Below are positions 12,383 to 62,768 of a DNA stretch of 64,000 bases, piece by piece (the stretch's first letter is position 1; every line of letters starts with the position of its first letter). This DNA comes from Tubiluchus corallicola. Taxonomy: Eukaryota; Priapulida; Priapulimorpha; Priapulimorphida; Tubiluchidae. The stretch covers positions 62,001 to 126,000 of the forward strand of contig JAQGDQ010000223.1 of the NCBI GenBank assembly GCA_030141605.1, read 5' to 3'. Both the position numbers and the translations under genes were made by a program. The notes beneath the pieces were generated by a model that was given only the letters and a program-made list of their open reading frames with translations, was not told the DNA's origin and did not search any database.

Positions 12383-12960
12383 TTAGAGTCGAACTCGGTT
12401 ATGGTGCCTTCTCAAACATGTTTTAAAATTATTGAAGATGGCACTTAAACGGCTGCCGTTGGTAATAATTTGTTTCCAGGGTCGATGACGCCGGAAGTCA
12501 GAAAAGTGCAATCGAATATTGGTTCGTGAAAAAGGAACACATAGCTTGGAGGGGTGTCCATGGAAGGGTCTAGGAGGGTGTGAAAAAATCATCTTTATGG
12601 AGGATGGATGCTCCATTGATTATTTTATAACAGTTGATGAGTTCAATGGTTTCTCTCCATTGTTCCAGAGTTGATAATGTAGAAAGATCAGCGTCCTCAG
12701 CTAGTACTAGTCTAACCCGTCGTTTTTGTGTTTTTTCCAAAGATGCTTTGAGAGTGGAGTATTGTGGTGAGCAGACTATACTGAAGAATAGGGTGTACAA
12801 CAGCTCTGTAAGGTGGGATGATTACCGAGGCTTTCCTGGACATAATACAACGTTTGATTATGCCAATGTGTTGATTAACTTGTATAATGATATTGCTAAG
12901 GTGATCGATCCATCTTTAAGATAATTTGGAGTTTGACTCTTAGGACGGATATGCAAAAGA
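12383..12960 (-). pseudogene. Non-LTR retrotransposon reverse transcriptase C-terminal remnant
   Basis: Two overlapping minus-strand frames join into the C-terminal end of a non-LTR reverse transcriptase ORF2. The first (12570-12800) includes LYTLFFSIVCSPQYSTLKAS and LEKTQKRRVRLVL, like the typical 'R/KILEYCSPVWSP...LEKVQRR' region. The second (12383-12616) reads RPFHGHPSKLCVPFSRTNIR and RPWKQI, the usual LINE tail 'PFSRTNxRLxFF...WNSLP'. They are separated by a frameshift near 12575-12600, and upstream stops up to about 12960 show further decay. No complete catalytic domain is present. Clade (CR1, Jockey or similar) cannot be decided. Confidence 0.75.
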
Positions 12961-14808: not shown

Positions 14809-17800
14809 ATGATTTCGTCGCCGCTATTTTACCGTAATTTTTTGGGAGCCAGGTTTCTTCCACTTAGCTTTGTATTTAATAACTTGGGCAGTGATGCAAA
14901 GCCTCACCTTCCTGATTACAACACGAGTGTAAATGTTCATGAACATAAATTAAAGAGGCCACAAAGAAAACCTAATCAACAACGACTATGGGATGGAATG
15001 ACAGGATTGGAAGAAAGAATAGTGGTAGGTTTACCTGTTATCATTACGTATGAATAACTTAGCAGTAAGCATTAAAAATTATTAATTTGGCTTACATTAA
15101 AGGGGGAATATCATGAAAATCAAGTTAAACTTATTTTATAATTGCCTTTTCCATGAACAACTTGGCGAAATTTTTTAGCAGTACGTTGTCTAATCAATGA
15201 GTAATTATGTCGTACACAACTAGGCTAAGAATGTATACATGTTTATATATATATATAATATTCGAGGCTACAGCTTCGATGGCGGCACCATTTGCGGCGA
15301 TCTATATATCAAATGAAAGGTCTCAATGTAGTGTGGTCTCATTGGGGGATTGGGGGTTTATTTTTCGAATCGGGCCCACCAGGACGAAGGGGGGGGGCAA
15401 AAAACCTCCCAAAATGGCCCTTTTTCGGCCGTTTTTTCAAAACTTATACCTCTTATTTCTGGAGGATGTTTGCATATTTTTGATTATAAGTGTATTTATA
15501 CGCAAAATTTTTTGCGAGGTCTGTGCTAGTTAACATATTATTATCCACTTTTACAAAATAAAAAAGTAACGATATAATGTGGTTCGATGACAAAATAATT
15601 ATTTATTGTGTTATTTCAAGCAAGGTTATTCTGACACTCATTCTATTACAAAGTTGAAAAAAGTATTTGTAGTACAATATAATCTAGTATAATGCTCGAA
15701 TGGCCCATCTAATTGCTGAATCATAGTGTAACACATTCCACGGCTGTTTTTCAATAAGAACAATCAGGATGACCAAAACCGAGCAAATCACGCATTCAAT
15801 CCACAATAGACTAATCTTTAGCGATACTGTGATACCGTCACAAGGTATAGGCGTAGGCATTCTCCCCTTGTGACTTATGCCACATTTTATCTATAATTTT
15901 CGCCACCAGAGGCGCAGGCGCAGGTCCTTGCTCAATGGTGGCCTAGTCAAATAATTATGATATCAAATTTCAATTCAAAACTAAAAGTGCTATAATAGCA
16001 AAATAATTTGACGTCACTGTTCAGTATGTGACGTTTTGTAAGGCACGTGTTTTCTTAATCAGCTGACCACAATGACCATGACTATATAGTCATAGGGGAG
16101 TTAAGTGACAGTTCCAAGGCTTGTTTTTGTGCTGATGGATTTGACTATCCAGCCCTGTGATATAAGTGAAATATAAAAAAAATTTTGATAACGCCAAATA
16201 AGGAGGGCAATTGAAAATCGTATCAATTTCCAGTACACTACATTCACAAGAGGCTGACTGAATTATACCAACATTTGCTTAATGGTTAGTTATTAATGTT
16301 TAGTTAAAATTAGTAACTTTAATGCTTTAACTTTAAACTGTTATTAATTTTAGCATTTTTTAAAAACTGCTAAATTATAGGACTAAATGATTTTATGCTA
16401 TGCTATTGTAATGTTTCTCATTTTAGGGTTCATTGATTCCTGACACATTAAAACAAATGAATGAAGATGAAGACTTTAAGATTACAACAAAGGCACTAGA
16501 AGAACTGGGTCAAAAGCAACTGACAAAAGAAGAAAGGAAGAAGCGTCAGCGAGCTTTAGACAAATTAGGAGTTCCTAACTTTCTTGCTTTTTGGCGAGCT
16601 GAAAAGGCTAAGCTTGGTTTGGCAGGTATGTGTAATCTGTATAGTGTGTTGCACTCTGATGTTTGCAACATCATTGGCCTTTTTGTGCAAAACTAAATGA
16701 AATAAGAAATTAAACGAGTCAGCCAGGTGTATCATGGAAACGTGTGTTGTATAGTAGCCATTCATATGTTATAAGATTTTCATGTGATTAGTAAGTATTC
16801 AGCAAAATCACAAACTTACACCTAGGCTTACACCGATCATAAGAATGTGTATTTTCTGAGCTTTTGAGGTCACTCCACACAATTTTTTTGGTTCTTGTGC
16901 AGACCAAGAAAACCGTCTAAGGAAGACAGAAGTAGGGATTCTGCAGTTAAACATCTCTTTGTACTGTAACCAGGCATGCAGTCATTGCCACGTGGAATCG
17001 TCACCTAAGAGGAAGGCGGAAATGATGGATAAGGAAACTGCTGATCGTTGCTTACACCTACTTGACAACAGCCCATCTATACACACTTTGGACCTCACAG
17101 GTTGGGCCATTTGCAAACTTTGTTTGAAATATATATAATATGTAGTTAAATGTTGTTGAAATTTAGTAGCGTGTAAGTAATTAGCTATTACGGGGGTTTT
17201 ACGTTCTGGCCCTGGATTCGTTTAGGGTTCCAGAACAAGTAGTGGATTAATATGTAAATTTCCAATCTACTTTAATATGCCATGGTTACCAGTTAGATTT
17301 TTGCATATTTTTGTTGACAGGTGGGGCTCCTGAACTCTGTTCCGAATTTCGATACTTGGTGAGGCAAGCACGAAAAATGAGAAGCGATTTGAAGATTATC
17401 GATAGATGCAACTTGACTGTACTTTTGGAGCCAGGCAAGTTGTTTTTGTTCACAAGCACAAGCAGTTCTGCATGATTAGTTTCTGTTATGTGCAGATACA
17501 GACACTTTAAAACGTTTAGTTTAGTTTATTTGTTTACTTGTTATTCCAAAAGCGACAACAGTATTTTATGCCAAGTGTACAATATAGAGATATCAGAAAT
17601 AATCTTAAATAAGATATAAATTAACGAATTATGATGAGCCAGACAAATAATTATATGCTCAAATCAAAAGGTAAACTTGAAAGATCTTAGCTGAACAGGC
17701 AATATGAAATAACGGGGTGCAGGACGTGCAAAATAAAGGAAGGAGTGAATGTGAAGATGTGGTGAGAAAGATGATAAAATAATGGGGAATGAAAAAATGT

Positions 17801-20800
17801 AAGGATAAGATTAAGTCTAAGCATTCGAATTTACATAAAAGAGCCATAGCAACCAACATCCCTTAATATGAATATGTACGGCTTTTCTTGACATTTATTA
17901 TTATTATTATTATTATTATTGTTATTATTATTATTATTACACAAACTTGTACCACATTGTTAACTTTTATTCTATAGCGAGTAACAACAAAATCAGAATT
18001 ACAGTTACACCTGTTAACAGATCACATTAAAAAAGCTTTGAATAATTCACTAGTATTAAATTTATTCGTAAATAAATGTATCATCCAATTCAAGAACATG
18101 GTGCAGCAAAAACACGTTGAGTAACTATTTGCTCAGTCTCTTCACTTTATTACTTAACTTGCCAATTATTTCCATTTCTGCACAGGAAGATCTCAGACAC
18201 TAATTACCGTAGCTCTTTTGTGTAGTGCTTAGAATGCTCACTGATTGGATCTCTGATGCAGTGAGGTGTAAGAAGACCTTATATAGATCTTGCAGAAACC
18301 TGATGTACAGTCTAGAATTCTCCATAACATTAGGTAGAAAACAAAGATCGAATTAATACTAGTTGCAATTTATTATATGAATTGTATCATGTGGTATCCT
18401 AGGAGCAGTAAATGCTAAATCTGCCAAATTTTTGCCAATTAGACATTGGCCCTCGATGCACAATAATTTAGTTACATTACTATTTCTTCATTTTGTCATT
18501 CAGCATCTCAAAAATGTCAACATTAAATAAACTACAATACAGTAGTTTATTATTAATAGCAACAAGTGTAAAGAAGTTACTTCTTTGATTTATTTGAAAT
18601 GTTCGTAACAGTATTTTCTTGTAAACTTAGAGTTAGAAGACATGGTGGAATTTTTAGTTGAAAACAAAGTTGATATCATCGCATCCTTGCCGTGCTATAC
18701 GACTAAGAATGTAAATCTGCAGCGAGGTAGTGGAGTTTTTGATAGAAGTATTCGTGCTTTGAACATGCTCAATGATGCTGGATATGGCAAAGAGGGAACT
18801 GGCTTAGAGCTCGACTTGGTTTATAATCCTCTAGGTAAAAAGAGAAAGTGTAAATAATCGTTAATAATTTTGTACTGTTTATTGATTTTCTTCTTGGTGC
18901 GATATAATTGGGTTATTCGTCACGTCAAACTAAAGCCTTGCTATAGTATAAGCTTTTACAACCTAAAATCCTGCTCTCGTTACGAATATTCAATTTATTT
19001 TATTATAAACTTACTGTAAAACTTGTTTCTTTTGGATTTTTATCACTTCGTCGTTAGCAGTATTAAAATTGAAGAATTGCCACTTTTTTGTTGCACGAGA
19101 CGAATGACGTAATGAGTGCAAGCACGACCACACCAAAGATTGGTAAACAAACGTCGGTAACCAAAGACATTTCTGCACTATGTAAGTCATTTTCGTTCAC
19201 TCGTGTCTTTGACGTGAAACATGCCAATCTTTACGGGAATGCACGTGTTCGAAGTTCACCAGAAAAAGGTAAGTTATTGAATTTGTAAGTTTCTTTTGTG
19301 CAAAAATAACTGTGAATTCTTTGTTTAATCATAATAGCACGTTAAAAAACTTCATTGTCTGTTGGGGTAATATCGGCCTTTCAGTAAGAGTATGCACATT
19401 GTAATACACACTTTTTTTACTAAATCACAATAATACATTGTTTGACCAAAGCTAGTTGGTAAATTCTTGTATAGAACTATGTTCTGAGTTGTTGCATATG
19501 GTTAATGGTGCAACTAAGTTAAGCAACATCTAGCATTACTGGCAAATGGATGGGCATCGAAACATGCCCTGAGCAATTTCATTTGCTATATTGCCACCTG
19601 CTATTAAAATAAGAACTTTCAGTAATCACTAGATAAATGAAAAAGTATAACGGACAGCTGCGAAAACCGCATGTTGACAATCCAACTTTTGCACCTTCTT
19701 TATCAGTGTCATAATAAATATTCACGACCAATAAGGGTAAAAAAACAATTTTCCTGAATTTCTTAGCCTGTCAGTTTCTTGTTAAATTTCTTTTATGTCT
19801 ATTTAGTCAGTGATGGCATGGCTGAGTTATTGCAACTGAAGGTAGGCCACACCTAGCCGTACTAGTAAATGGTTGGGAGATCACCTAGAAAATCTTTTCT
19901 GGGCAGTTTTGCCTGCCATACTGCCATCAGCTGTTTATCTCAAGGAGGGACAATTATGTAAATCTCCAATGTTTTGTCAGTTTATTTTCTCATCTGAGTG
20001 ATTTGTCATTGATGTTGATTAGGTTTCAGTCCTGCCAATAGCATCTAAATTAAGCAGGGCCTCCTGTTGAGTGCCAGGCCTTGACTTGGAAAATGATGAT
20101 GCATATAAGAAATAAATAATGAAGTTTGCATTATGTGGTAATATTTCATTTTATTTACCATTATTCATGTGTTTAGCCTAAATAATACAATCATGTTAGT
20201 GAATTAGTACAAAAAGTATGCAATATCAGCCTAATGATAACTTTGCACAACATTCAAAAGAAAAATTGGTACAACGGTTCTAAAGAAACAGACTTGCAAC
20301 TAATATATAGACAATTTTCAGATAAATTTATTTAATCTCTTGTAACACACGAAAAAATCAAAATAAGTTATTAGTATTAAGAGAAAAGGTGGCGAAAAGA
20401 CCCCAGAGGTTAGCAAATCAGCCACCCTTTTAGTTAAAATTATTAAAGAAAATCTAGCGACGATTTAATCTGGGATGAAACAAAAAAATGTAGCCAAAAT
20501 GAAAAAAATATAATACTGAAAAAATGATAGCAAAAAATGAATCAAACTAGTTTTAAGTGACAAAATAATATGCAAAAATAAAAAAAACAAAAAGCAACTA
20601 AGTTTAAGCCTTGGAAAGATTACATAAACTGCACAAGCAAAAATCAAGGGACTAACTTTGACCCTTGAAATTTCGATCTCTCCAATATCTACAAATGAAT
20701 AAAATTTGCTAGTACATAGAAATCAGATAGTAGTTAAAAACTGAAGTTGTTATTTTCATTAACATTATTCTATCCTAATTTATTTTTTACTAAAGAAATT

Positions 20801-23038
20801 ATTTATAGGAGGATACTTGCCTCCACCACAGGCAGAACTAGAATTAAAGTACAAAGAAGAGCTATGGGACAACTTTGGCATAGAATTTAACAAGCTCTTC
20901 TGTATTACTAATATGCCAATCAAGCGATTTGTGGACTTCCTGAGTAGAAGGTACGTTTTTTTTCACCTGGTCATCGTACAGTTGTCACAAATAATATTAG
21001 TGGAAAACATATTAGTATTTTTTCTTTGTATATTCTCCTACCTAATATTCTTTGTATATTATCATATGTAATACGTGCTGTTTGTGTGTTGTTGTTTTAT
21101 CAAAGTCACATTAGGCCTTGGCAAACATTGCAGGGGTGAACTGGAGGACTATATGCACCTGCTGATTAGGAACTACAATGTGTATACTATGGACAGCCTC
21201 ATGTGTCGTGATGTACTCAGTGTAAACTGGAAAGGGGAGCTATTTGACTGTGATTTTAACCAACAACTGGACATTACTGTCACAGGAGTAAAAAGTAAAC
21301 ATTTTTAGTATGCTTTTAAGTGACCAGTAAATTATACATTGATAGCTATGGTTTTGTGGTAAAATGAAATCATCTTATATAATGAGACATATTTGCCTGT
21401 GCCAAACAAATACAATTTTGGCTAAGTCTGGACTTCGTCTGGTTTAAAATGGCAGCAGACCATTTTTGTGATCTTGTGAAACATAAGTATCTTCTAAACT
21501 TATGGCCACATCTTTAGCCTTGGCCACATGACCCTTTTTTTAAAGGAAACACATAGCCTTCTATGAGGTTAGGCTTATTTCAGTGTTCGCAAAAAATGTT
21601 AGAATTATTTAGTAATGAAATTGCAATAAACGCCTTGTGTAACTAGTAAAATCACTTTAAAGTTGTGATCGCTTCATGCACTTCCATTTTCAATGCCCAT
21701 TCTTCCAATGATGTCATTCGTCTCGAAGAAAAGCAGCACACTGTCCATCTTCATTAAAAGTATAATAAGTTTTTACAAAAAAAATAGATAGCTAATTTTG
21801 TAATATTTTTGCATGAACATTTGCTAAGCTGCAGAAATTTGAATTAGTTTAAGCAGCGTGTGCTTCCGAAATGTCACGAAGTCTCACATTGAAGTCACGA
21901 TTTTTAAGTGAATGGTGGCTACCACCACACCCGAAAATTTCTATTCAGATGCAGTATATTTTAAATTTATGCTTTATAGGCAGTTCTTTGCAAGTTTCTT
22001 TGTTATGTTTTTGTAAGTTTAAGTGATAACAGTAAAATAAGCCCAACATACTGAGTGACTTGTTCTTTCCTTTAAAGAATTACTAGATGTGGGTGTATTC
22101 CTGTAGTGCGGGAAACTGATATTGACTAACTGCCTTGAGGCTGGAAAATCATCTGGAGATTAATACTTTATATCGTTTCATACGTATGTGCTACAATATT
22201 ACGAATTCATTATGTTGTCCATTCGTCTTCCAGTTGTCACGGATACAGCCTTTGCAAAGGCTAAGTCCTGTCACACTAATTGCCTGCATCTCGTGTAAAT
22301 AGTCATTGTAATGATATAGTTAGCAAAATAAGAAGTTTAAGCGTATATGAACCTTTTAAGTCATATAGTGTCCATCTATTTTCAGCATCTAAACAACAAA
22401 AATTAGCAACACCAATAAACTGGCTGACTTCATTAATGTATTTTATAATTTGCTGCTGCAAATTTGTTGAAGGCACTTGTTTGTTGGTTATTGTAACTTT
22501 TCACTTGGAGGATATGAATGAATTGAGTGTTCAAATTTTGCTCATTAATTCTAAAGTTAGGCTAAAGCAATTTAAACAAGGTTAAATATTGCTTAAGATT
22601 CCTAAAATCGAGCATTGTTGGGTGGAAAAACAAAGCAATTGAAGGCAAATTACAATGAAATTTATTTTACAAAGAAAGTCTATCATTTAAGACAAGAAGA
22701 CTTAAGGCACAAAACACATGTGAGGAATGAAAGGAGAAGAAAAAAGCATGTGTTTTTTCTTTTCCTTTCATTCACTACATGTGTTTTGTGCCTTGTTACA
22801 GATTTTACTCTGATGAGTAAATAAACAAAAGCACGGCATATTTTTACACGTTGCGGCATTATGTCTGACTTATAGTACACTGATTTTTTTAGGAAATTAT
22901 CCAGAAAAGGGAAAAGCGCCAACAATATGGGATATTGAATGTGTGGATGCTTTGAAGAGTAATATAATAGCTATTGACAATCACTGCTTTGGCTGCACAT
23001 CAGGTATGGGATCTAGCTGCCAAGGTGTCGTTGCTTAA
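14809..23038 (+). CDS. arsS: ArsS-type radical SAM protein, arsenosugar biosynthesis family (8 exons)
   Basis: Radical SAM enzyme of the ArsS family, which in bacteria uses SAM to attach a deoxyadenosyl group to dimethylarsenite on the arsenosugar route. Exons: 14809-15024, 16427-16625, 16903-17100, 17321-17434, 18631-18834, 20809-20950, 21134-21294, 22893-23038; 459 aa, phases 0,1,1,1,1,2,1. Intron 4 is GC-AG (AG|GCAAGT), the others GT-AG. The cluster motif is CNQACSHCH (C160, C164, C167). Family blocks follow: SLPCYTTKNV, LVYNPLGG then YLPPPQAELE, ITNMPIKRF, MCRD with CDFNQ, and C-terminal HCFGCTSGMGSSCQG (C443, C446, C454). Some bacterial members have selenocysteine in the last motif; here the codon is TGC, so Cys. 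The first ~150 residues extend beyond the bacterial form; residues 1-26 lack acidic residues and could be a mitochondrial presequence (inference). The ATG at 14809 follows an in-frame stop (14791). Confidence 0.93.
15261..15529 (+). mobile_element. Short Helitron-like element in arsS intron 1
   Basis: The 5' segment beginning TCGAGGCTACAGC matches the element at 165-2266. The 3' hairpin at 15501-15516 (CGCAAAA, TT, TTTTGCG) is perfect, followed by AGGTCTGTG and CTAG at 15526-15529, then T. It is an internally deleted copy of about 270 bp without coding capacity, preceded by a TA run. Confidence 0.7.
17895..17939. repeat. (TTA)n microsatellite in arsS intron 4
   Basis: Continuous TTA units with one G interruption. 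Confidence 0.95.
19481..19610 (+). mobile_element. Candidate 5S-rRNA-derived SINE fragment, copy 1
   Basis: In arsS intron 5. AAGTTAAGCAACATC followed by AAATGGATGGGCATC resembles the 5S rRNA internal promoter region (GAAGCTAAGC...TTGGATGGGAGAC). It shares its layout with the copy at 19815-19945. Heavily diverged; assigned from memory of 5S sequence. Confidence 0.35.
19815..19945 (+). mobile_element. Candidate 5S-rRNA-derived SINE fragment, copy 2
   Basis: TGGTTGGGAGATCACCTAG resembles the 5S rRNA stretch TTGGATGGGAGACCGCCTGG. Both copies are followed by a TGCCA...GCTG segment, so they belong to one family. Not a functional 5S gene. Confidence 0.4.
22704..22794. repeat. Near-perfect 91-bp hairpin in arsS intron 7
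   Basis: Left arm AAGGCACAAAACACATGTG continues into AATGAAAGGA and AAGAAAAAA. The right arm is the reverse complement, ending CACATGTGTTTTGTGCCTT mirrored around ATGTG near 22748. Stem is about 43 bp with few mismatches and a very short loop. It could be a tiny MITE remnant or a structured intronic RNA. Confidence 0.8.
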
Positions 23039-30994: not shown

Positions 30995-33900
30995 TTAGTT
31001 CATATGACGACAGTTTCTTATTAGTTTCATTTTAATGGACTCACAGTTCTCTGTCCGCATCTGAAAGAAAACTCTTCTTGAAGTGTCGTCTGAATGCAAG
31101 GGCATAATACTCCTCAGCGTGTACAAAAGTAAAATTTAGTAGAGGCATAATACTCTACGGCATGTGCACCAGTATGTAAAATTAAACAAGAGCATAATAC
31201 TCTACAGCGTGTACAAAAATGAAATTCAGCAAAGGCATAATATTCTGTAGCGTGTGCAAAAGTATAATTTAGCGAGGACACAATGCTCTACAGTAAATCT
31301 ACAAGAAAAGTTTACTGACTATGTGAAATATGAACATTGTAAGTTTTTGGGGACTTAGATTTAGAAATTGTCATCTATCCCATAAGGAAGTTTGTGAATG
31401 CGATTTGGTCTGGACAAGTTTCCGCATGATTTAAAACGCATCATAGTGATTAGTGATTTTGTCAAAATTATGAACTGCCGGCAAATTTGCATGTGGAAGT
31501 TGGGTCGATTTTAGGCAAACGAAAAAGCACCAAATTGTTGTTTTCTTACAGATTCAACTTATATTTATATTTACATTTGTTCAATATTTTTTAAGGTACA
31601 ACGGCATCAAAAATGTTCTAAAATGGATCCGCATGGCCCGTACGTAGCCCAAATTTGAGAGAAGCATTCTAGCAGATTCTGTTATTTCAAAAGAATAGTA
31701 GTAATGTCGACGTGGCAGAACTTACCTTTAGACAGGTTTCCATAAATTCTTCTATTGTTATCACGCCGTCTTTATTTAAATCCATTTTCTGAAAGAATAA
31801 AATAAAATGAAAAATCACTCTATCCTGACTACGATGATAATAACGACGACCACGATGATGATGTTGATGAATGACGACAACGACGATATTGGCAAATTAT
31901 AAGGAAGCCAGGCCTATAGAGCTGCTGCCTCGTTTTGAAGACACAGATCACATTTTTGGACAGTTTGTCGCTTTTCATTACCAAAAACTTTTATTACCGA
32001 GTTTTGACAGTTATATAACAAAGCCGGTACATTAACTATTTGTGATTTCTGGCCATCCAAACGGTATATCCCAGGCGTCACACAATATTGTCACCAATTG
32101 GTCGCGACCTTGACAAAAAATATGTCCAGAAAATGTTGCCACCGTGTTGGTACAATATTGGATATTCTTGCCAATATTGGTACAACATTGGACCAATAAT
32201 GTCGTCCAATATTGGAAACACATGGTTTACACGTACTGCTAAAAGATAGGTAAATGTTGTGGCAAGTCCACATTTCCATATTGTCCAAATATTTGCAAAA
32301 GTATTGTCACAACACTGGTACAATATTGTTGTGCTGCATTATTATACTTTCGAAGCACAGGGTTTGTTGCCTGTTTGTTCACTCATTGAAGACCTTTTAG
32401 TGCCCTTTGCAAGTTTCATCATTAAACTTTTACCCACTTTATCGGTTATTGGTAAAGGATCAATACCTTTTCTTGCCTGACCAGCAACTGGGTTTAACCA
32501 TTAGTGCACTTTGTAGTATTTTTGATGGTTTTTGTTGTTTATCGATTACACATTAATTTGTTGTTTATTTCTTACTTCACAGTCGGTTTTGTAAAAATTT
32601 TGTCGAAAACCGATAAGTGATTGCAAAGTTACTCATAGAAAAAGTCCGAAAAACGACACTCAAAACGTTGGTCGGATACCTCGGACGTTTTCCTCGGTGG
32701 GTGGACCTCCCTGAGGCCCACCATGGGCTGATTAAGGGTTTCACGGTGGATAGCTATTAACAAAAAACGCGCATCTGCGTATGTGCGCAATTATAAATCC
32801 AATGTGTTCAACTGGTAATCCTGACATTTACCTAAATTTGTCTTTAGCACGTTCGGTTTTAATGATTTTGTTATCCTGTTAAAAATATCTCAAATAGGGC
32901 TGCCAGCTGTCCTTTGTTAGGACAATTCTACATTTCAATCATTGTCCTATATCCTATGTTTACTCCTAAATGATAACGTGTCTTAAATATGGATAAAAAC
33001 CCAAATTGATGAATTACTTTTATAAAGTTCAAATCTCAGTCAATTTTTTTTCAAAAATGGCATTTTTACAGATATGTTCACACTATTCTTAATTATTTAA
33101 ACTGGCTAAATTTTCCTTAACAATTCAAAAATATCGAAATTTAGGAAGGGTAAATTTTAAAGAGTTTTTATTAAAAATGTGTTTTTATATATATTTGAAT
33201 TTTCAAAAAGTGACCCTATTCTCTTAGATTCTCAGGACTCCGAGGGTCTATCAAAAGTTTAGGCTCTTGCCCAATTAGTTTAATTGTTAATCAACTCTTG
33301 CGGCCTGGAATGAATGACACGGCAAATAGAACTCCGTATTTACACCCCAAAGGACAGGAGAACAAGTAGGGCTGCTTTCATCCATTCCAGAAGCGCAATA
33401 TTTTTTTTTAACTAAAAATGAATCGGGCGTTTAGTTTCTTAGTCAATTATCTAGTTGAGATAAAACTGTGGACCGAGATACTGAAATCGGTACTTCTTTT
33501 TCTCTGACTGATACAGAGGATTGATAAAGCACCTATCTTGGTCCAGCGACGGGGCGAAATTTAGCTTTTTTACGGCAGAAGTGGTGCTAAAGAAATTTGT
33601 CCACTATAAATCCTCTGCATCGAGAATAATAAGCTTCTAGACATGAAGCAAAATCTGCAGTTTTTACTCAGCTAAAAAGTCTACATTTTTAGGTATATCA
33701 GTTAATACATTATTAATTTCCTTGCTGTACTGAATGTTGACGTAGTTGTTATTAGACCGCCTGCTTATTGATTAACGCATTTTGTTTATTTTTGTTTCAT
33801 AACTCTGCAAGCAACGGCATTCGAAAGTTGCAATTCATTAACCACGTGAAGTACTTCGCTCGCAGGCACACACTGTGTTTGCCCGAAATTGAAATTCAGT

Positions 33901-36900
33901 GTTTGATGGCGGTTGCGAAACTGCCTCCAAAAACTGAGGAGAGAAACAAACGAAAACCACGAAATGTGACAATATTGACAGACGGAATGAAGGGGTCTTT
34001 AAGTGACAGTGTACACATCAGTCTAGCTGCTGTCGTGCTAAAGTACTTCTTGAGGCGTTTTTATTTTGCGGTTTGTGCGTACGTGATATGTGAGTGCTAG
34101 TCGCAATTTTTGGATCTTGTTCGGTCAAATCGCAACTCATCTGGATGTTGTTGTTGTTCTTGTTGGAAGACCATTTTGAAACAAGCCTAACGCTCCGAGA
34201 ATTTGCAATAGTTCGTTATGACACGGCACGCGAGTTTACTAGAACGCAGGCACACACTGTGTTTGCCCGAAATTGAAATTCAGTGTTCGATGGCGGTTGC
34301 GAAACTGCCACCAAAAACTGAGCAGAGAAAGAAACGAAAACCACGAAATATGACAATAGTGACTGACGGAATGAAGGGAACGTTAAGTGAAAGTGTACAC
34401 ATATTGATTTGATGATTTTGAATGTAAATATTTGTTTTATATAAAAGTTTGTTTTTATTGTTTGCATATGATGTGAAATAAAAAAATAAAAAAAACGAAT
34501 TCCGCACCGACTTACGAATTTTCTACCCGCCATTTTTAATTCAAGATGGCGGCGGTAATATCATTTCGAAGAAAGCCTCGGGCTCTGCCAGTTCGCAAAG
34601 GATCGTCATAAAACTTAACAGGAATATACTAGAACGAATTCAGCATTGACTGATGGAATCGATTTTTGACCTGACATCTTAATTTCAGAATTGCGACAGT
34701 GACGTCATTTGCTAAAAAACCTAAAAGCCTGGCCTGCGAACAAATGCACTAGAACAAATGCTGGGCGAAAGTACAGGGGCATATGGAAAGGGGGCTTAGA
34801 TAGGAGTGAAAAATGGAGAAAGGAAATGGTGACATTTAATTCATTTATTATATAGACCAAAATCGAACTATAAAAATTTTGAGTTGATTTTGATTCTTAC
34901 TCACACTATATTTTAGAAAATCTTCAAAGGGAAGAGGTATGGTCTTACCCATATGCTTCGCATGAATGGTTTATGACAACCTATTGTATTCGAGACAAAG
35001 TCAAAGACAAAAATACTGTACAACATTTATTTAACGTTGTTTATTCTAACAGGTAACATTAGCACTGAGCGCTATTTAGCGACTTACAACAATACAGGCA
35101 AGGACGCAACACACACGACGAATAACATGTAGGCTGTATGTCCTGGCGTTTGCAGCCGCTAGACTCAAAATCTAGACTGCGTGGTTGCAGTCCAAAATCT
35201 AGACTACTCGGCCACACACCCCTTGACAAACTCGTACTGTTTGTGGCAGTTTGCTCACTGGAGGCTGTGTACGGTCATACGTGGCTAAAACAGCTCTGCT
35301 GGTTCAGTGGCTCATCTTTGAGGGTTATCAAAGATAATATCGAGTCAGGCTCTGGTCATACCAGAAAAATGATTCTGCCGTTGAAAGCCTGATTCAAGCT
35401 TGCAGTGTGTCGAAGCGTATATGAAAAAAGAAAAAAAATCACAACTAGCATAACTTACGTCAAAGACCATGTCTACATGATCTTGTGCTGTAGTTTCCTC
35501 AAGCATTGGTGATGTGTACCTTCCTAGCATGTCATATATACTGGACACAATGTCAAGCATTTCTTCTCTTGTCACGTATCCATCCTGGTTGATGTCGTAC
35601 AGGTTGAATGCCCACTGAAGCTTTTCTGTCGTTGTACCTCTGGCAAGAACTGATAGACCCATAACGAAGTCCTGAAAAAATGGTGACCGTTAACAGCATC
35701 AGTTCTGAAAAATGGGTTCATTATTGGTACGATGCTAGGTGAATAGCAACAACCAGAGCCATTCCATAAGATTAATTAATGGAGGCTTAGTCATTCAATG
35801 CAATTGTAGAGACATGTATTTCTTAGATGAAGCCAGGAAAGCAGATTTACTCATCAATTAACTAGTCTTCAATGATGATGTACAATGTAACGATTAATTG
35901 GCTAAGACGTTCAGCCAGCTAACTGACTGATGAACAAATTAATCATCTGCAGAAGCCTGTTAGTCGCCGATAGCTTAATAAGTGAGTTTGTCAGCATGTG
36001 GGTCACTAAGGGGTCGAATGTTCGAATAAGAGAGAGAGTATGAGAATATGCGGGGTAGATGCTTATACGTACATTTCGATGCGGTGGTTGTTGTGGGTTT
36101 ATGCGCAAATTTTTGTGGGGTTTGGCTAGTTTTATGCAAAGAAGTAAGACTTCAATGAAAATTAAAGGGAAAATTTTTAGAAATAATGAATCAATAACGA
36201 AACTAGTTAAGCGATCGCAATAAAATTCGCATGCGTAAAATTCTTTTGCGATCAGGCAGTATGGGCAAAATTTGATTGCGATTCTTGGCTAATATTACGT
36301 AGACAGTTAATAAAAAAGGGCAAATTAAAAGGAAAAAATATTAAGAAATAATGAATTTACAACGAAGTTATTTGAGCGGGTCAGGTAGTTAGTCAGTCAG
36401 TAAATTAGTCAGTGTAAGGCCACGTACATTTATTTGAGCTGGGTTTTTCTCCTCACGACTTATGCCTTATGGATTACGTCCAGCTCTGTGTGTCAGTGTC
36501 TGACACGAGCCTAAATGCCCTTCGGTAAGTCACCATTTTAGTATTCAGCAACTCAACACCGAAAACAATTCTGGATCTTACAAGAAAAATCGATAGTTAG
36601 CTAGAAAAAGGCATTCTGCACTGTCCGCGGCTTCCTGCAACTGAAAAGTTTCAGTAAAATGCAAACAGAAATAATTCAATGAATTGACATCAGAAGACAC
36701 CCGCGTCAATAATATCCTTTTAGTGACTTGTCCTTTATCAGCCATTACACCCACCATCAAGCAACGCTCAACGCCTTGACAGAATGTATTTCTGTCCAAT
36801 AAATGACTGCTGGCTTGTCTCCCAGAAGAAACAAGCACAAAATACGGATAAGACAGATTCTTATAACCGCTTTCGTCATTTACCAATAACTCGAAGTTAA

Positions 36901-37721
36901 CAACTTTTTCTCGTTTTTTCGTTTCTCTCGTCTTTTCAATTACAATTTTGGTTAATTGTTTCACTAGGCAGTTGTGGAACTACATTTTTGAACGCCTATA
37001 ACGTTAAAGGCGATACACAACTCTGACATGCGGTAAGGATTAATTATTTTTTTCAGTTACGATTCTGGGTAAAAAAATTTGCACTTACGGAGCTATATTT
37101 GTTAACGCTCATAATGTTAAAAGGCAATGCACAACTTTGATGTGCTGTATAGAATAATTAATTTTCACTAAAGAAAAGATCAGCAAAGTAGTATTGCTCT
37201 TGTAATTTTTTTTAGATCACATTACATTAACAAAGTAAATTATTACATTAACTATCACATTACGTTAATTATTTAAATTTAATGTCCATGCTTGTCCATT
37301 CTAGAAAAAGTTTAATTTTAGTTGGTTTAGGTTTGCCGAACTTCTTAACAAAAATTCTTTGTTGTCACGTGTGATACAGAAAATAAATTTGACAAGTGAA
37401 ATGTTTTTGAGCTGAGCACTCCCACTAGACAAATTTATTGCTCAAAATGTATGTATCCGCGGAAAAAATTAACGAGGAAGAAATTGTTATTTTAGCTTAT
37501 GGGCCTGTTTAACTTTGACAACGTCTAATAATTCACCGAAAGACAAATTTCTGATAGGAAACTGCAATGAAACGTAATCTTAAAACTGGCACGTCGAAGC
37601 TAATTAATTTTCAATTTCATTTCTAACAAAGTTACTAATTAATACGCAACTAACTAGGAGAAAATTGAAATCCAGCAAGATAGATGCATAATTTCACAAT
37701 TTTTTGCGTTGTTAAGGATTG

Positions 37722-37819
<98 letters not shown>

Positions 37820-40800
37820 CGCGAGAGAGCGAGAGAGAGAGAGAGAGAAGAGGGGGATTCACTCGGTATTCCTTAGTATAATTAACTTACCTCAAAAGTG
37901 ACATTGCCATTATTATCTTGGTCGAAAAGTTGGAAAACGTAATGAGCGTATTGGCTAGCATCTGCAAATACATGAAACTTAATTAATTCTATTAAACTGG
38001 TGAAAGGATAGAGGGCTGGAGGACAAAGCAAAAACATAGCGCTAACAGTGCATATAAACAATAGCGGAGCTTTGTTTAGCGAAGTTTGTTAATTGATGTG
38101 AACTATGAAATTTATTTCGCATATCAGGAAGTACGCTATCAGATACATCAACAAAGTTTGAAGTTAAACAATTTTAAGTAGTGTGTCTACCATCTGGTCA
38201 TTTTCACACTCACCTTGCTAATATAGGAAAAATAATTATAATATGAATACTTATATAGAAGTGTACATTTCACCTAACAATGTAACTGAGAGGGGTGTAA
38301 TAACAGCAATAGCATTTTCTAGTTGTTTATACAGAAGGGTTAAACATTTTCTAGATATCATCAGGTCTTTTCTCTCACTCATTTTTTCCTCCTCTGCGTT
38401 TATTATTGATTGACCTCTAAAGGTGATCTTGTAAAACAAGCGTGCGAGTTTCCCGGCGAAGTGAATACTGCAAGCACTTAGTCCATCATTCGGTTTGTCA
38501 GTTTTAGCAAGTGAATTTAGTGACGGAAGAAGAACCAATGACAGAACAAAGCGACCAGTTGCTGATGATGGTTGCGGTTGTAGATGGGCAGAGAGTCAAT
38601 TTGCTTTCTTTCCTTCCTTAAAATGCATCCAATCAATTTAAGTAAATTTATGCAGGAAAACATGTGTGTTTTAAAAGACTAATTTATTGTTAAAACACTT
38701 AAAAAATTTAAAATCGCTGTAGCATAGCCGATGTTCGACTGCAGTATTCAGCAAGTTTGCCAGTTTGCAAGAGTTTTTAAACAACAACTAGTTTATATGA
38801 ATGGATACTTACAGTCGAAACGTCTGTAATGCTACATTGATTTCAAAATTTTCGTGTGTTTTAACAATAAGTTTGTCTTTTATTTTAAAACCGGATTGTC
38901 TTTTGTAAAACTGTAATATTTACAGTTTTTAGTTTTTAAAGCTATTGATAACAAAATTGTGTTTTTTACATAGATAAATTTCGAGTTTCGACCAGAATTG
39001 TTAGATTATAGTTGGACTGTTGGAATTGTTCCATAAATAGTCAGAAGTTCAGAAGTTCAGTTTAATCCTGTAACGTTTAAATGCGATTATAATGCACCAC
39101 CTTTTTATTTTTAATACCAGCAGCCTGGGAAGGCAGTTAAAGTTTACCGAACAAATATTAAGGGGAAACGTAGACTTATATGCACTTACCTCCTTGTGGA
39201 AAAAACTGAGCGTAAATATCCTTAAAAGTCTCTTCATTTACCATACCCGTTGGACATTCCTATAAAGAAAGTGGTCATTTTCGAAACATGATTTACAAAC
39301 AGGGTGATTTGATATTTATAAGATTCTTGATGGCATTATAATATTACAGTCTGTGTTTGGGGAAGTCCAAAGACGCTAGTCTCAAATTGATGGGTTACTA
39401 ACCAACATTTGATATCAATAATACCAACCGATTTCCGCCTTGGGATGAAATTTCTTGCTTTTACGCCACTGACGCTTTATGCGTTTACATTAGTAGTATT
39501 TATCACATATACAGTTATATGGAAAAAGTTGCGGCAAGATATAAAAATCTTATTTTTAATTAACACCTTTGCTTTGTTTTAAAATATCAAATATACTTTG
39601 CACAAAATTGTTATCGATTCCATATAAGCAAACGCATTGTTATTTTTTCACAGGTTTATCCACATGTGAAAATTCTAACGCTGACCTTCTATAGATGGTG
39701 CGTGGATGATATTTATACATACATTTTACTGGTTTTCCACTATTATTGTTGCGGGCTGTGTTTTTCAATGAATGATCTTTCTACGTAGGGAAATTTTACA
39801 TTTTAAATCTACTTCGCTACATGACTGGCCGGTTGCCACTTTTGTTTACTAAAGTGGCGTTTAGGTAGCATCCGGAATGCGTTATGCGTTATTCACTTTC
39901 GGAATAGATGCGGAATAAAAATCAATAGGAAATGTTTGCAGAAAAAATAACGCATAACATAGGTCTGATAAACGGGTGCATTGAAAGCAGTATAAACCGA
40001 TTTTATCTACTGCGCACCCCCATAACGCATACGTATTCCGAATGTCAGGTAAACGCCACTTAACTCGTCAACCTTAATTTTTATAGTTTTTTTTGGAAGG
40101 GGAAGTTTCTTTAAGTTTGTGAACTCAAGAAAATGAATGACACATTCACTACAAAGATTACTGACAGACGTGCTAATAAAGTAGGCATAAACTAAACTTC
40201 ATGAGTTGTACCTGTTTGAATCCTCTGTACATCATTTGCAACTCTTTGCGACTGAACCTGGTCGTCTTGCAAAGTGAATCCAGCCCTTCTGGTTTATATC
40301 TAACCACTTGCATCTCCAGATCATCAATATCATGATCTGAAAGAACACAACAAATTTAATACCACAAAGTTTTACTTTAGTTTTAGTTTATTTTTCCGAA
40401 ATGTCATGACACTAAGTACATTGTTACATACATGCATTACTATACGCACAAATATTACAACAAACAAAACAAAATTCAAAATTTTACAGTATACGGATAT
40501 CGACTCAGACAAAAAAGATAAACTTGTAGTAAAAGCTAAGCAAAAAGCACATTGGAAAGAAAATATGTGGAATGTGTGAAATTGAATAATAACGGAGAAT
40601 GAAATACTAGGGTGATACTAAGAGTAAGGAAATGACAAAGAAAAGCGAATGTGATGATGAAAATGAAGATTAGATTCACATGAGAATGTAAACAAGAAAC
40701 AGCTTAATCAGCCGAGTTCCTGCAAAAGCGGAAAAAGTTACTAATGGACAAAAGTCAAGGGCATTTTGACAAGAGCAGAAAATTTTGTATTAGGAATGTC

Positions 40801-42440: not shown

Positions 42441-42487
<47 letters not shown>

Positions 42488-42506
42488 GCAACAACAACAG
42501 CAACAA

Positions 42507-42577
<71 letters not shown>

Positions 42578-42597
42578 ACAGCAATAATAATAATAAT

Positions 42598-42686
<89 letters not shown>

Positions 42687-45600
42687 TAATGATGATGATG
42701 ATGATGATGACGATGATGGCGTCGGTATTTTTATTACTATATCAATATTACTTGAAATTTATTTCAGTAGCGTTTATAATAAAGCAAATACATTGTAAAA
42801 TAGGCACGGACATAAAAGGTGATTTATATGTATAAGGTGCATATGAAAATTATTTATAGCAATAATAATAAGAAGAAGAAGAAGAGGAGGAGGAAAAGGA
42901 GGAAGAGGAAGATGAAATTAAATTAAAAATATAAATTCCGTAGGTATATGAATATTAATGCGCGCGTGCTTTTATTATATCTGTCCGTTTTGGTATAACA
43001 ATATAGCGTGACGTTACGTTAGATTAAGGCCCATGACTCGACGAACCTCATCAAAGCTTGATTCAGGCTACTTCATATTTCACAAAGTTTAGAGTTTTAT
43101 TTAGATTTAGGTTATTTACACATAAGCTGTAACCTAGCTGTAACCTATGTAGCAGTGCGTGTATGTATTCTGTCCTTGCAAAATTTTTCCTGCAAAAATT
43201 GACGCAGAGGGGTGTTAAATTCAACAACATTAGTCACAAGCTGATAATTATCAGGCTACGTTCAGCTACTCTATGTGATTTAACATTTCGATCAAGGAGA
43301 CTTTGTCGTTTCATTAAGTGCACGATTCGATAGCCTGACCAGCAAATTAGAAAGGGGCTTGTATCGGATTATAGCTGAATTGTGCAGCTTTTAAGCGCCT
43401 GTGCTGCGTGCTGTTAAAGCCAAATGACCATCAGATGATCAGAGCATCAATGTGAGTGACCTTAACAGCATCATTTACACAAGCGTGATAGTGAATGAGC
43501 AAGAGAGGGAGAGGATTAGGGAGAAAATGGATGAGTAAAGGAGATGAGTGCGATGCTGAACGAGTTCACGGCTGATTAATTTTTTTAATTGACTGGACTG
43601 ATCGGCTGACCGACTAACTCACTGGCAAAATGAAGAATGAACGAATAAACGGAAAAATAAGAACCAAATAAGTTAATGAATGAACATTTAAAATGGCCGA
43701 TTAACCGCTGAACTGATGAATTATTCCTTGACTCACTTGGTGGTTGAGTAATCGAAGAGTGTTTGATTTTAACGAACTGTTGACAGAAATGACATTTAAT
43801 TTTAACAGAAGCAGAATGAATAGAAGGAAAGGGAAGGGAATGGGAGGGAAGGGAAGGGAAGTTAGGGAAGACCACGAACGAGTTTGCTGCATAGCATCAG
43901 GAGGTGGAAAGACAAGAGTTACCGGAGAACGCACAATATCAAAGGAAGTGCAAAAAACTGCTGCTGGATGCTAAACTTCTGTACAAGAGATTTATGATCT
44001 GAATTGACTAACCAACTGCGTGACTGAACAACTCTAAGTCCAGCTCGATTCACCAAGACTGAAAAATTGACTTCTTGATTTATTTTTTATTCTAGACAAA
44101 GGATGAATGATCGTTGCAATGAATAAAGTAGCGAACTTGAAAATAAATGGATAAAAGAATGTGAGAACAAATGAATGAATAAATGACTGACTGACTGACT
44201 GACTGACTGACTGACTGACTGAATGAATGAATGAATGAATGAAATGAATGAATGAATGAAGGAAGGAAGGAAGGAAGGAAGGAAGGAAGGAAGGAAGGAA
44301 GGAAGGAAGGAAGAAATGAAGGAAAGAAAGGAGGAAGGAAGGAAGTGAATAAGTAAGTATTACCAATTTTTTCTTGTGCTTCGCTACGAATCATAATGTA
44401 ATTTTCGTTACAGAGCACAATTATTGCATTTCAACTTGGAACCAGAAAGTTCTGTCACAAAAATGACTGAGGTAAATAAGCTCTGAATAAACGCAAAATT
44501 ATTTATTTCGTCCAAAAGTTGGTCGTGCCCTTGGAGATGTCGACAAACAAGAGGTGATGCATCTAGTTTAACTCATGTTTGAAATCCGTCAGCCAATTTA
44601 ACACACGTGTTAGCAGCCGTGAAGCCAGAATGTTGATGAAAGACGGATTAACTACTGTGAAGAAAACGTTTATTTAGACTAGAATGATATATATTGTAAT
44701 TTAAAAAGATGTTAACGACGGCGATAACGGGTGAACAGGAAGTAAAAATTAGAGTTTAATTTGTTCAGCGCGCCCTAGTGGCAGTCTTATCATTATTAGT
44801 CCTGCTACTTAAAATTTCAAGCCCCAAGAAGGAATAGCGAGTGTCATATTTAATGTGAATGTGTGATCCGGCTGGAACAGGTGCATCATTAAACAACCCA
44901 TTATAAACATCGTTATACTTACCCATTCATGTAAGTAATGTTAAATTTTGCGTTATCGGCTTGACGATTACTACTTGCGTGGAAGTGTGCGTGTGCCTGT
45001 AGCTCTTTATTTAATAACAATGAGAGATAAATGTACATGTTTTCCCTTTAGTTTAGATAATATGTTGTTATTACACGAGTTAATTGCTTGTTGATATTGT
45101 GCATGATATGTGAGGACATGTGGGTATTTTTTCATGAGATAAGCATTAAAAAATGCATAAGTTGATAACGGGGCAATCTACAGTAGGTGTACTGAAATCT
45201 GGATCAGTCTTACGTTGCAACGAAAACCGAACGGTGTAATAAAAACTATATTCTATGTCCAGTTAAATCGTCAAAACTATTAATTGGTCGCCTCATAACA
45301 CATGTATTACCGCCTGTGCGCGATATTTATTATAACTGACGTATGGGTAATTAACAAGCTGTTGCACATACAGCACAAGCAATAATGTTCTACATCCATT
45401 AATGTCACTGCATATGTTCTATAATAAATTGTCACATAAGCTTTTGATGATGTCTATACTCTAGTCGTTAACAAAATGAAGCAAACCTACAATCACTAAA
45501 ATTTAACGTTGGCCTAAAACGTTACGTAAAATGAACTATAAGGAAAAAAATGTCCTGCTCCTGCTGTCACTTTCTGGTATCATTAGCACGTATTCTTCAC

Positions 45601-57111: not shown

Positions 57112-57130
57112 AGAGAGAGAGAGAGAGAGG

Positions 57131-57218
<88 letters not shown>
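57112..57218. repeat. (GA)n microsatellite
   Basis: Over 100 bp of GA with one AAAA interruption, preceded by GATA and CAGA units from about 57068. Confidence 0.95.
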
Positions 57219-58009: not shown

Positions 58010-58890
58010 ACGGCGTGCGCCGGCCGGCCAAAGCGTTTCATCCAATCAGAGATCAGTATTCTAGCATTGTTTTTTTACCTTTCCCGCTACTTGTATTGGG
58101 ACACGATATGCATAATTAAAAACGCTGTACTAGGCCACTAGAAGAACAATCAGTTTCAGAGCAGGGAGTGATGAATATGTCAGAGCAAGAGTTAACTTTC
58201 AAGTTCATAATATCAAATATCTGTCTTTCAAAATTGCAGTTACAGCTCGACACGTTACTGGAACTAACTGGCCAATAGTTGTTCTGTGAACGCGAAATAT
58301 GTACTGCACGTCAGAAAAACTAGGTCCTGTAGCTAAATAACGTAGAGTAACGCTAGGCGTTCTGCAGGCGATATGCAAGCTCTCATGTTTGTGTCCTGTT
58401 TTTTAATTTCCACACTGACCATATCCACTAATTCAGCAAATGTCTCATTATCCATTCTTAGAAAATTTCTATAAGACCAAGGATCCCTATCCCTGAGTTC
58501 ATTCAATAAATTTAAATATGCAACCTGAAAAACATGTTGCTGTAACCACTTTTTTGTCCAACAAGTACGATTTTTGCGTTGCCTTTTCCTTTTTAATCTA
58601 CGTAAAGCCAATATTGAAATGGCAACACTTGCCGGACGCAAATTTTCGATGTCCAATTCTTAATTAACTGCAATGTCTATATAGACCTTACTCCACGCTC
58701 CAGTGACACAAAAGCTTTAAAAAACAAGATAATCCACCAAATAATTGCTGATTATAGATCTAATTTTCAACATAAAACACTATCCAGAAGTACCAAAACT
58801 AAATGGCGACAAAATGTTTGCTTGTACGGCCGTCATTACTGCCGTGCTCTCTTCTACACAGTGTATCAGTCGCCGGCCGGCGTTTGCCGT
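58010..58890. mobile_element. PIF/Harbinger element remnant with GC-rich TIRs
   Basis: ACGGCGTGCGCCGGCCGG (58010-58027) pairs with the reverse complement of 58873-58890 (ACGGCAAACGCCGGCCGG), 15 of 18 identical. Between them lies a minus-strand Harbinger transposase fragment. At about 880 bp it is too short for an intact two-gene Harbinger element. A TWA-type TSD was not discerned. Confidence 0.65.
58206..58656 (-). pseudogene. Harbinger (HARBI1-like) transposase N-terminal fragment, frameshifted
   Basis: The minus-strand frame from 58656 contains DPWSYRNFLRMDNETFAELV and ISPAERLAL, the conserved region preceding the DDE nuclease domain of Harbinger/HARBI1 proteins. Near 58350 a frameshift moves the homology to another frame, where YLATGPSFSDVQYIFR and VPVTCRAVTAILKD continue the family pattern until a stop near 58206. 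The DDE catalytic residues are not included, so it is non-functional. Confidence 0.85.
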
Positions 58891-62115: not shown

Positions 62116-62481
62116 TAACGTAACGTAACGTAACATAACATAACATGATACAATATAACATAATACAATGTAATACAATATAACACAATACAATACAGTG
62201 CAATGCAATGTGACACGACACGACACGACACGACACGACACGCTACGATACGATACGATACGATACGATACGATACGATACTATACGATACGATACGATA
62301 CGATACGATACGATACGATACGATACGATACGATACATACGATACATACAATACAATACAATACAATACAATACAATACAATACAATACAATACAATACA
62401 ATACAATACAATACAATACAATACAATACAATACAATGCAACACAATACAATACCATGCAACACAATACAACACAATGCAA
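62116..62481. repeat. Pentanucleotide arrays (TAACG)n-(ACACG)n-(ATACG)n-(ATACA)n
   Basis: Successive blocks change one base at a time: TAACG/TAACA, CGACA, CGATA, then CAATA. The many ORFs in all frames are by-products. Confidence 0.95.
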
Positions 62482-62768
62482 TCAATATAATATAAAATAA
62501 TATAATAAAATATAATAATAATCTTTATTTAAAGTCGGACTTTGAGATAAACAATTAACAACTAAAGAGCTTTCTGACGACTGTAAATATCAATTTACAA
62601 CTACGTAAATGAGACATAATTACCACACTTCTACACTAAATGCAACGCCGCAGGCAACCTAAGGAAGGGTAACAACAGGTGCTATTTTTAAAGTTTTTGG
62701 TATGACCCGGCCGCAGTATCAAACTCACGACCTCTCGACGGACGCGTTACCACTAGTCTATATCTCAT
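62482..62768 (-). mobile_element. tRNA-derived SINE (possible Meta-type central domain)
   Basis: On the minus strand CTAGTGGTAACGCGTCC (A-box region) and GAGTTTGATACTG (B-box region) form a tRNA-like head, followed by CGGCCGGGTCATACC. Then comes AAAAACTTTAAAAATAGCAC and CTGTTGTTACCC, which resembles from memory the conserved central domain of metazoan MetaSINEs. The 3' end is AAATAAAGATTATTATTATA, a simple-repeat tail running straight into the pentanucleotide array. Confidence 0.65.

Follow-up and report, generated by a model that had tools for sequence, protein, structure and literature searches.

The 64,000-nucleotide stretch analysed here (hereafter the window), from contig JAQGDQ010000223.1 of the priapulid Tubiluchus corallicola, carries a spliced gene in an animal genome that is, by profile, a member of the ArsS family of radical S-adenosylmethionine (SAM) enzymes. 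In bacteria, this family joins arsenic to a sugar precursor. We consider it probable (about 65%), judging from the sequence, that the gene belongs to the animal's nuclear genome and encodes a working ArsS, which adenosylates dimethylarsenite delivered by the animal's own AS3MT, and that it probably descends from bacteria and entered its host long ago.

The eight exons (14809-23038, forward strand; Table 1) join in phase to form 1380 nt, coding for 459 residues followed by a stop codon. This gene model had been proposed in a first-pass annotation, and we rebuilt it exactly, splice sites included. Six of the seven introns are of the GT-AG type, the exception being intron 4, of the GC-AG type (donor CAG/gcaagt). 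The shortest measures 183 bp and the longest 1974 bp, the lengths of five of the seven are not divisible by three, and the retention of any one of them introduces an in-frame stop. Their GC contents (0.31-0.35) lie within the range of the window, as against 0.41 for the coding part.

The protein was compared with the NCBIfam profiles, of which TIGR04167, the equivalog model for the arsenosugar biosynthesis radical SAM (seleno)protein ArsS, matched residues 144-457 over model positions 2-302 of 303. The score, 403.9 bits, compares with a curated cut-off of 300 bits. Other radical SAM families were considered and rejected, as the runner-up among the 25 of 39 matches listed reached 37.4 bits against its own cut-off of 625. 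Two Pfam domains scored above cut-off, DUF3641 (170.2 bits) and Radical_SAM (39.4 bits). A chance assembly of open reading frames (ORFs) is ruled out by the in-phase join together with the TIGR04167 and DUF3641 scores. The profile search thus bears out the family placement made in the first-pass annotation, which had also located correctly the CxxxCxxC motif (C160, C164 and C167) and the C-terminal CxxC...GSSC motif (C443, C446 and C454). Among solved structures there is no close sequence match, and the top hit in the PDB (E 0.00054) covers query residues 152-231.

To collect relatives, we searched plasmids, genome contigs and viral contigs; the relatives compared are bacterial. Plasmids yielded 52 records, with 45-48% identity among the best 40 of the 52. 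At least 588 of 593 pattern stretches from genome contigs code for relatives, and the best 80 (46-56% identity) were kept. A single one of 50 pattern stretches from viral contigs does so, as a partial sequence with 39% identity (L084:58-276). Conservation and tree analyses used 83 bacterial rows, namely the 80 from genome contigs and three from plasmids, leaving out the partial viral sequence; the structural analysis drew on 54 of the 80 relatives from genome contigs and left out L001-L003. Some eukaryotic and animal ArsS entries are to be expected in public protein databases, and animal copies may already have been deposited there unremarked.

The animal protein keeps 70 of the 71 columns conserved in at least 97.5% of the bacterial rows, including nine cysteines, the sole loss being A448S. 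At the 90% level it keeps 96 of 99 columns, and 28 of the 83 bacterial rows depart from the rest at least as often. Every one of the 83 rows has a Cys at the positions of C160, C164, C167, C382, C397, C443, C446 and C454, and 82 and 79 of them have one at those of C234 and C264, respectively. This near-full retention of conserved columns argues for function.

In the chemistry that we propose, C160, C164 and C167 would hold a [4Fe-4S] cluster that splits SAM and generates a 5'-deoxyadenosyl radical. The animal's own AS3MT, whose presence in the genome is presumed, would supply dimethylarsenite, DMAs(III), to which the radical would add to form 5'-deoxy-5'-dimethylarsinoyl-adenosine. This compound is the committed precursor of arsenosugars; in the animal, adenine removal and glyceride capping would take place downstream of it. 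The DUF3641 domain, with C382, C397 and C443/C446/C454, may hold an auxiliary Fe-S cluster, the arsenical or both.

Published work and bacterial gene neighbourhoods are consistent with such a pathway. According to the portions of the literature that we drew on, a cyanobacterial ArsS and an ArsM act together at the outset of arsenosugar formation (PMC8552651), a radical SAM enzyme catalyses arsenic adenosylation (PMC12159101), and animals from sponges to primates possess AS3MT (PMC5398495). Of 40 ORFs listed as neighbours of bacterial arsS genes, 20, from ten loci, were scanned. Two of them are ArsM-like, with scores below the cut-off of 263 bits (176.0 bits in L008 and 159.4 bits in L065), and the 'arsenosugar' glycosyltransferase TIGR04282 was found above cut-off in L062 and just below it in L019. 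On an Acinetobacter portensis plasmid named pJNE5-X3_NDM-1 (L002:3956-8909), the annotation places arsS in an arsenosugar-type cluster that also contains the TIGR04282 and TIGR04283 glycosyltransferases.

We also investigated the ancestry of the gene. In a careful tree, the animal row and 47 bacterial rows of mixed phyla lie on one side of a branch with 100/99 support, and the other side comprises 36 rows, among which are 29 Pseudomonadota and three cyanobacteria. The animal row's own sister branch has a support of 16/0, and the six-row set that encloses it has 67/71. Forcing a union with the three cyanobacterial rows gave a tree 40.4 log units worse, which was not rejected (p-AU 0.0747). Residues that the animal protein has in common with individual bacterial rows (SS at 171-172 and Q455) indicate no single group. 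All tree partners being bacterial, the tree alone does not separate a transfer into animals from an older eukaryotic inheritance; a bacterial ancestry is probable. The seven introns suggest that the gene has long resided in its host.

Several observations weigh against a working animal arsenosugar enzyme. The A448S replacement falls within the C-terminal motif, and the bacterial rows were picked by their similarity to the animal protein, which somewhat inflates the retention reported above. The animal branch is long (1.23, the second longest of 84). Among the matches listed, 16 of the 20 bacterial neighbour ORFs match no arsenic-named family. Earthworms kept on arsenic-spiked soil contained no arsenosugars in an experiment whose authors, in the sections that we cite, lean towards uptake from soil (PMC3838358), and animal arsenosugars therefore need not originate in the animal. 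Finally, the enzyme that attaches the ribose is still termed unidentified in the part of a 2024 review that deals with it (PMC11228943).

The N-terminal part of the protein is pertinent to the alternative that best survives, namely that a functional ArsS-family enzyme was repurposed to modify another substrate (metalloid, small molecule or peptide), with the extension serving the new role. In the animal protein, 159 residues precede the CxxxCxxC motif, as against a median of 38 in the 83 bacterial rows, for which the longest ATG frame was taken, and the bacterial rows start aligning near residue 131. The extra part therefore amounts to some 120-130 residues. Longer N-terminal frames are found in two of the 83 bacterial rows (L026 and L043), probably as a result of over-called starts. 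The first-pass annotation was thus right to describe a long extension without a bacterial counterpart, which it had put at about 150 residues. The core is less charged than residues 29-138, for which no Pfam family scored above cut-off in a search with E values up to 10. Two Pfam matches of the extension below cut-off and a weak PDB match to PTAC18 (E 0.11) were taken as chance. A presequence-like start had been suggested. Residues 1-28 contain two Arg and no Asp or Glu, but no amphipathic signal rises above shuffled sequences: of 5000 shuffles, 4353 equalled or surpassed the largest hydrophobic moment found in residues 1-30. The case for a presequence is weak, and any organelle location would be tentative. 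A profile score that exceeds the equivalog cut-off by a wide margin and conserved positions kept in all but one case suggest unchanged chemistry, and we regard repurposing as unlikely.

The long branch might also betray a young pseudogene, captured from bacteria, that has lost its function or is not expressed. We find this highly improbable, given a coding sequence devoid of frameshifts and internal stops, seven well-formed introns and the retention of the family's conserved residues.

The ArsS family is common in bacteria, but contamination with bacterial or algal DNA, or a chimaeric assembly, can be practically ruled out by the spliceosomal introns, the window-like GC content of these introns, the repeats that intron 1 shares with the surrounding contig and an animal gene in the same window. 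The latter lies downstream on the reverse strand and resembles genes for Kv channel-interacting proteins (KChIPs). It comprises at least four exon-like stretches, three of which have EF-hand matches in Pfam, two above cut-off. When joined by hand, the four stretches scored 216.8 bits with Kv channel-interacting protein 4 and 147.3 bits with frequenin 2. To our knowledge, the Kv channel-interacting protein family is confined to animals. On the upstream side, six ORFs were scanned with Pfam and none scored above a family cut-off. The first-pass annotation had placed the gene between two animal genes, which is upheld on the right-hand side only; its argument against contamination stands on the introns, the shared repeats and the KChIP-like neighbour.

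Table 1. Features of the ArsS gene and its surroundings, in window coordinates
Feature	Position	Strand	Remarks
Exon 1	14809-15024	+	Start codon, first ATG of the open stretch; extension residues 1-72; GT donor
Dispersed-repeat copy, intron 1	15244-15442		Also at 147-337, 83%
Dispersed-repeat copy, intron 1	15460-15543		Also at 2196-2277, 85%
Exon 2	16427-16625	+	Charged extension, residues 73-138
Exon 3	16903-17100	+	Radical SAM motif CxxxCxxC (C160, C164, C167)
Exon 4	17321-17434	+	Radical SAM core, C234; precedes GC-AG intron 4
Exon 5	18631-18834	+	Radical SAM core, C264
Exon 6	20809-20950	+	DUF3641 domain begins
Exon 7	21134-21294	+	DUF3641 domain, C382 and DCDFNQ motif (C397)
Exon 8	22893-23038	+	C-terminal motif (C443, C446, C454); stop codon
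Candidate polyadenylation signal AATAAA	23706-23711	+	Consensus match only; within 1.6 kb there are six AATAAA/ATTAAA sites, this one included
KChIP-like gene, downstream	31690-39259	-	Exons within 39182-39259, 37885-38088, 35348-35689 and 31690-31896; host-genome marker

Elsewhere in the window, no arsenic genes were found among 19 other ORFs or parts of ORFs scanned with Pfam. An ORF at 58336-58659 (reverse strand), which we take to resemble HARBI1-type transposases, and two overlapping ORFs at 12573-12915 (reverse strand), which look like remnants of non-LTR (long terminal repeat) reverse transcriptases, had no Pfam match. Two near-duplicate coding-like stretches on the forward strand (33921-34043 and 34305-34397), whose starts are 384 bases apart, share LPPKTE.R.KRKPRN.TI.TDGMKG.LS.SV, and long simple-repeat arrays are present at 62148-62517, 42442-42718, 44170-44345, 57112-57218 and 37725-37852.

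Animal arsenosugars are commonly ascribed to diet or uptake. We tentatively propose, at slightly less than even odds, that some animals encode ArsS and, with AS3MT, make arsenosugar precursors de novo. If this is true, part of the arsenosugar load of invertebrates, and perhaps of their arsenobetaine or arsenolipid load, would be endogenous rather than dietary or symbiont-derived. ArsS would also join AS3MT as a second animal arsenic enzyme likely derived from bacteria. An intact animal ArsS makes the question of arsenosugar origin accessible to gene knock-down or enzyme assay. The excerpts making up a small open-access sample of the arsenosugar biosynthesis literature do not mention an animal ArsS. 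Overall, the first-pass interpretation is borne out in part: a spliced animal ArsS-family gene that is not a contaminant is upheld, without the left-hand animal gene, the case for a presequence is weak, and endogenous arsenosugar chemistry is a proposal.

The animal protein resembles bacterial ArsS (TIGR04167) in its full-length profile match, the CxxxCxxC and CxxC...GSSC motifs and 45-56% identity to the relatives listed. It differs from it in being encoded by a nuclear gene of eight exons and in its N-terminal extension, A448S and long branch. SkfB (6efn), which we take to be a SPASM/twitch radical SAM maturase, has 19% identity to the animal protein and acts on peptides, and the common fold does not show function. 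ArsL, the arsinothricin enzyme, is likewise a radical SAM protein that forms a C-As bond and acts beside an ArsM. As described in the portion of the report that concerns it, ArsL is set apart from ArsS by moving a 3-amino-3-carboxypropyl rather than an adenosyl group, and it has 428 residues with CxxxCxxC at 194-201 (PMC8552651). Animal AS3MT is a methyltransferase and not a radical SAM enzyme. It would supply the substrate of the animal ArsS and, as argued in the cited part of that study, it sets a precedent for the fixation in animals of an arsenic enzyme that came from bacteria (PMC5398495).

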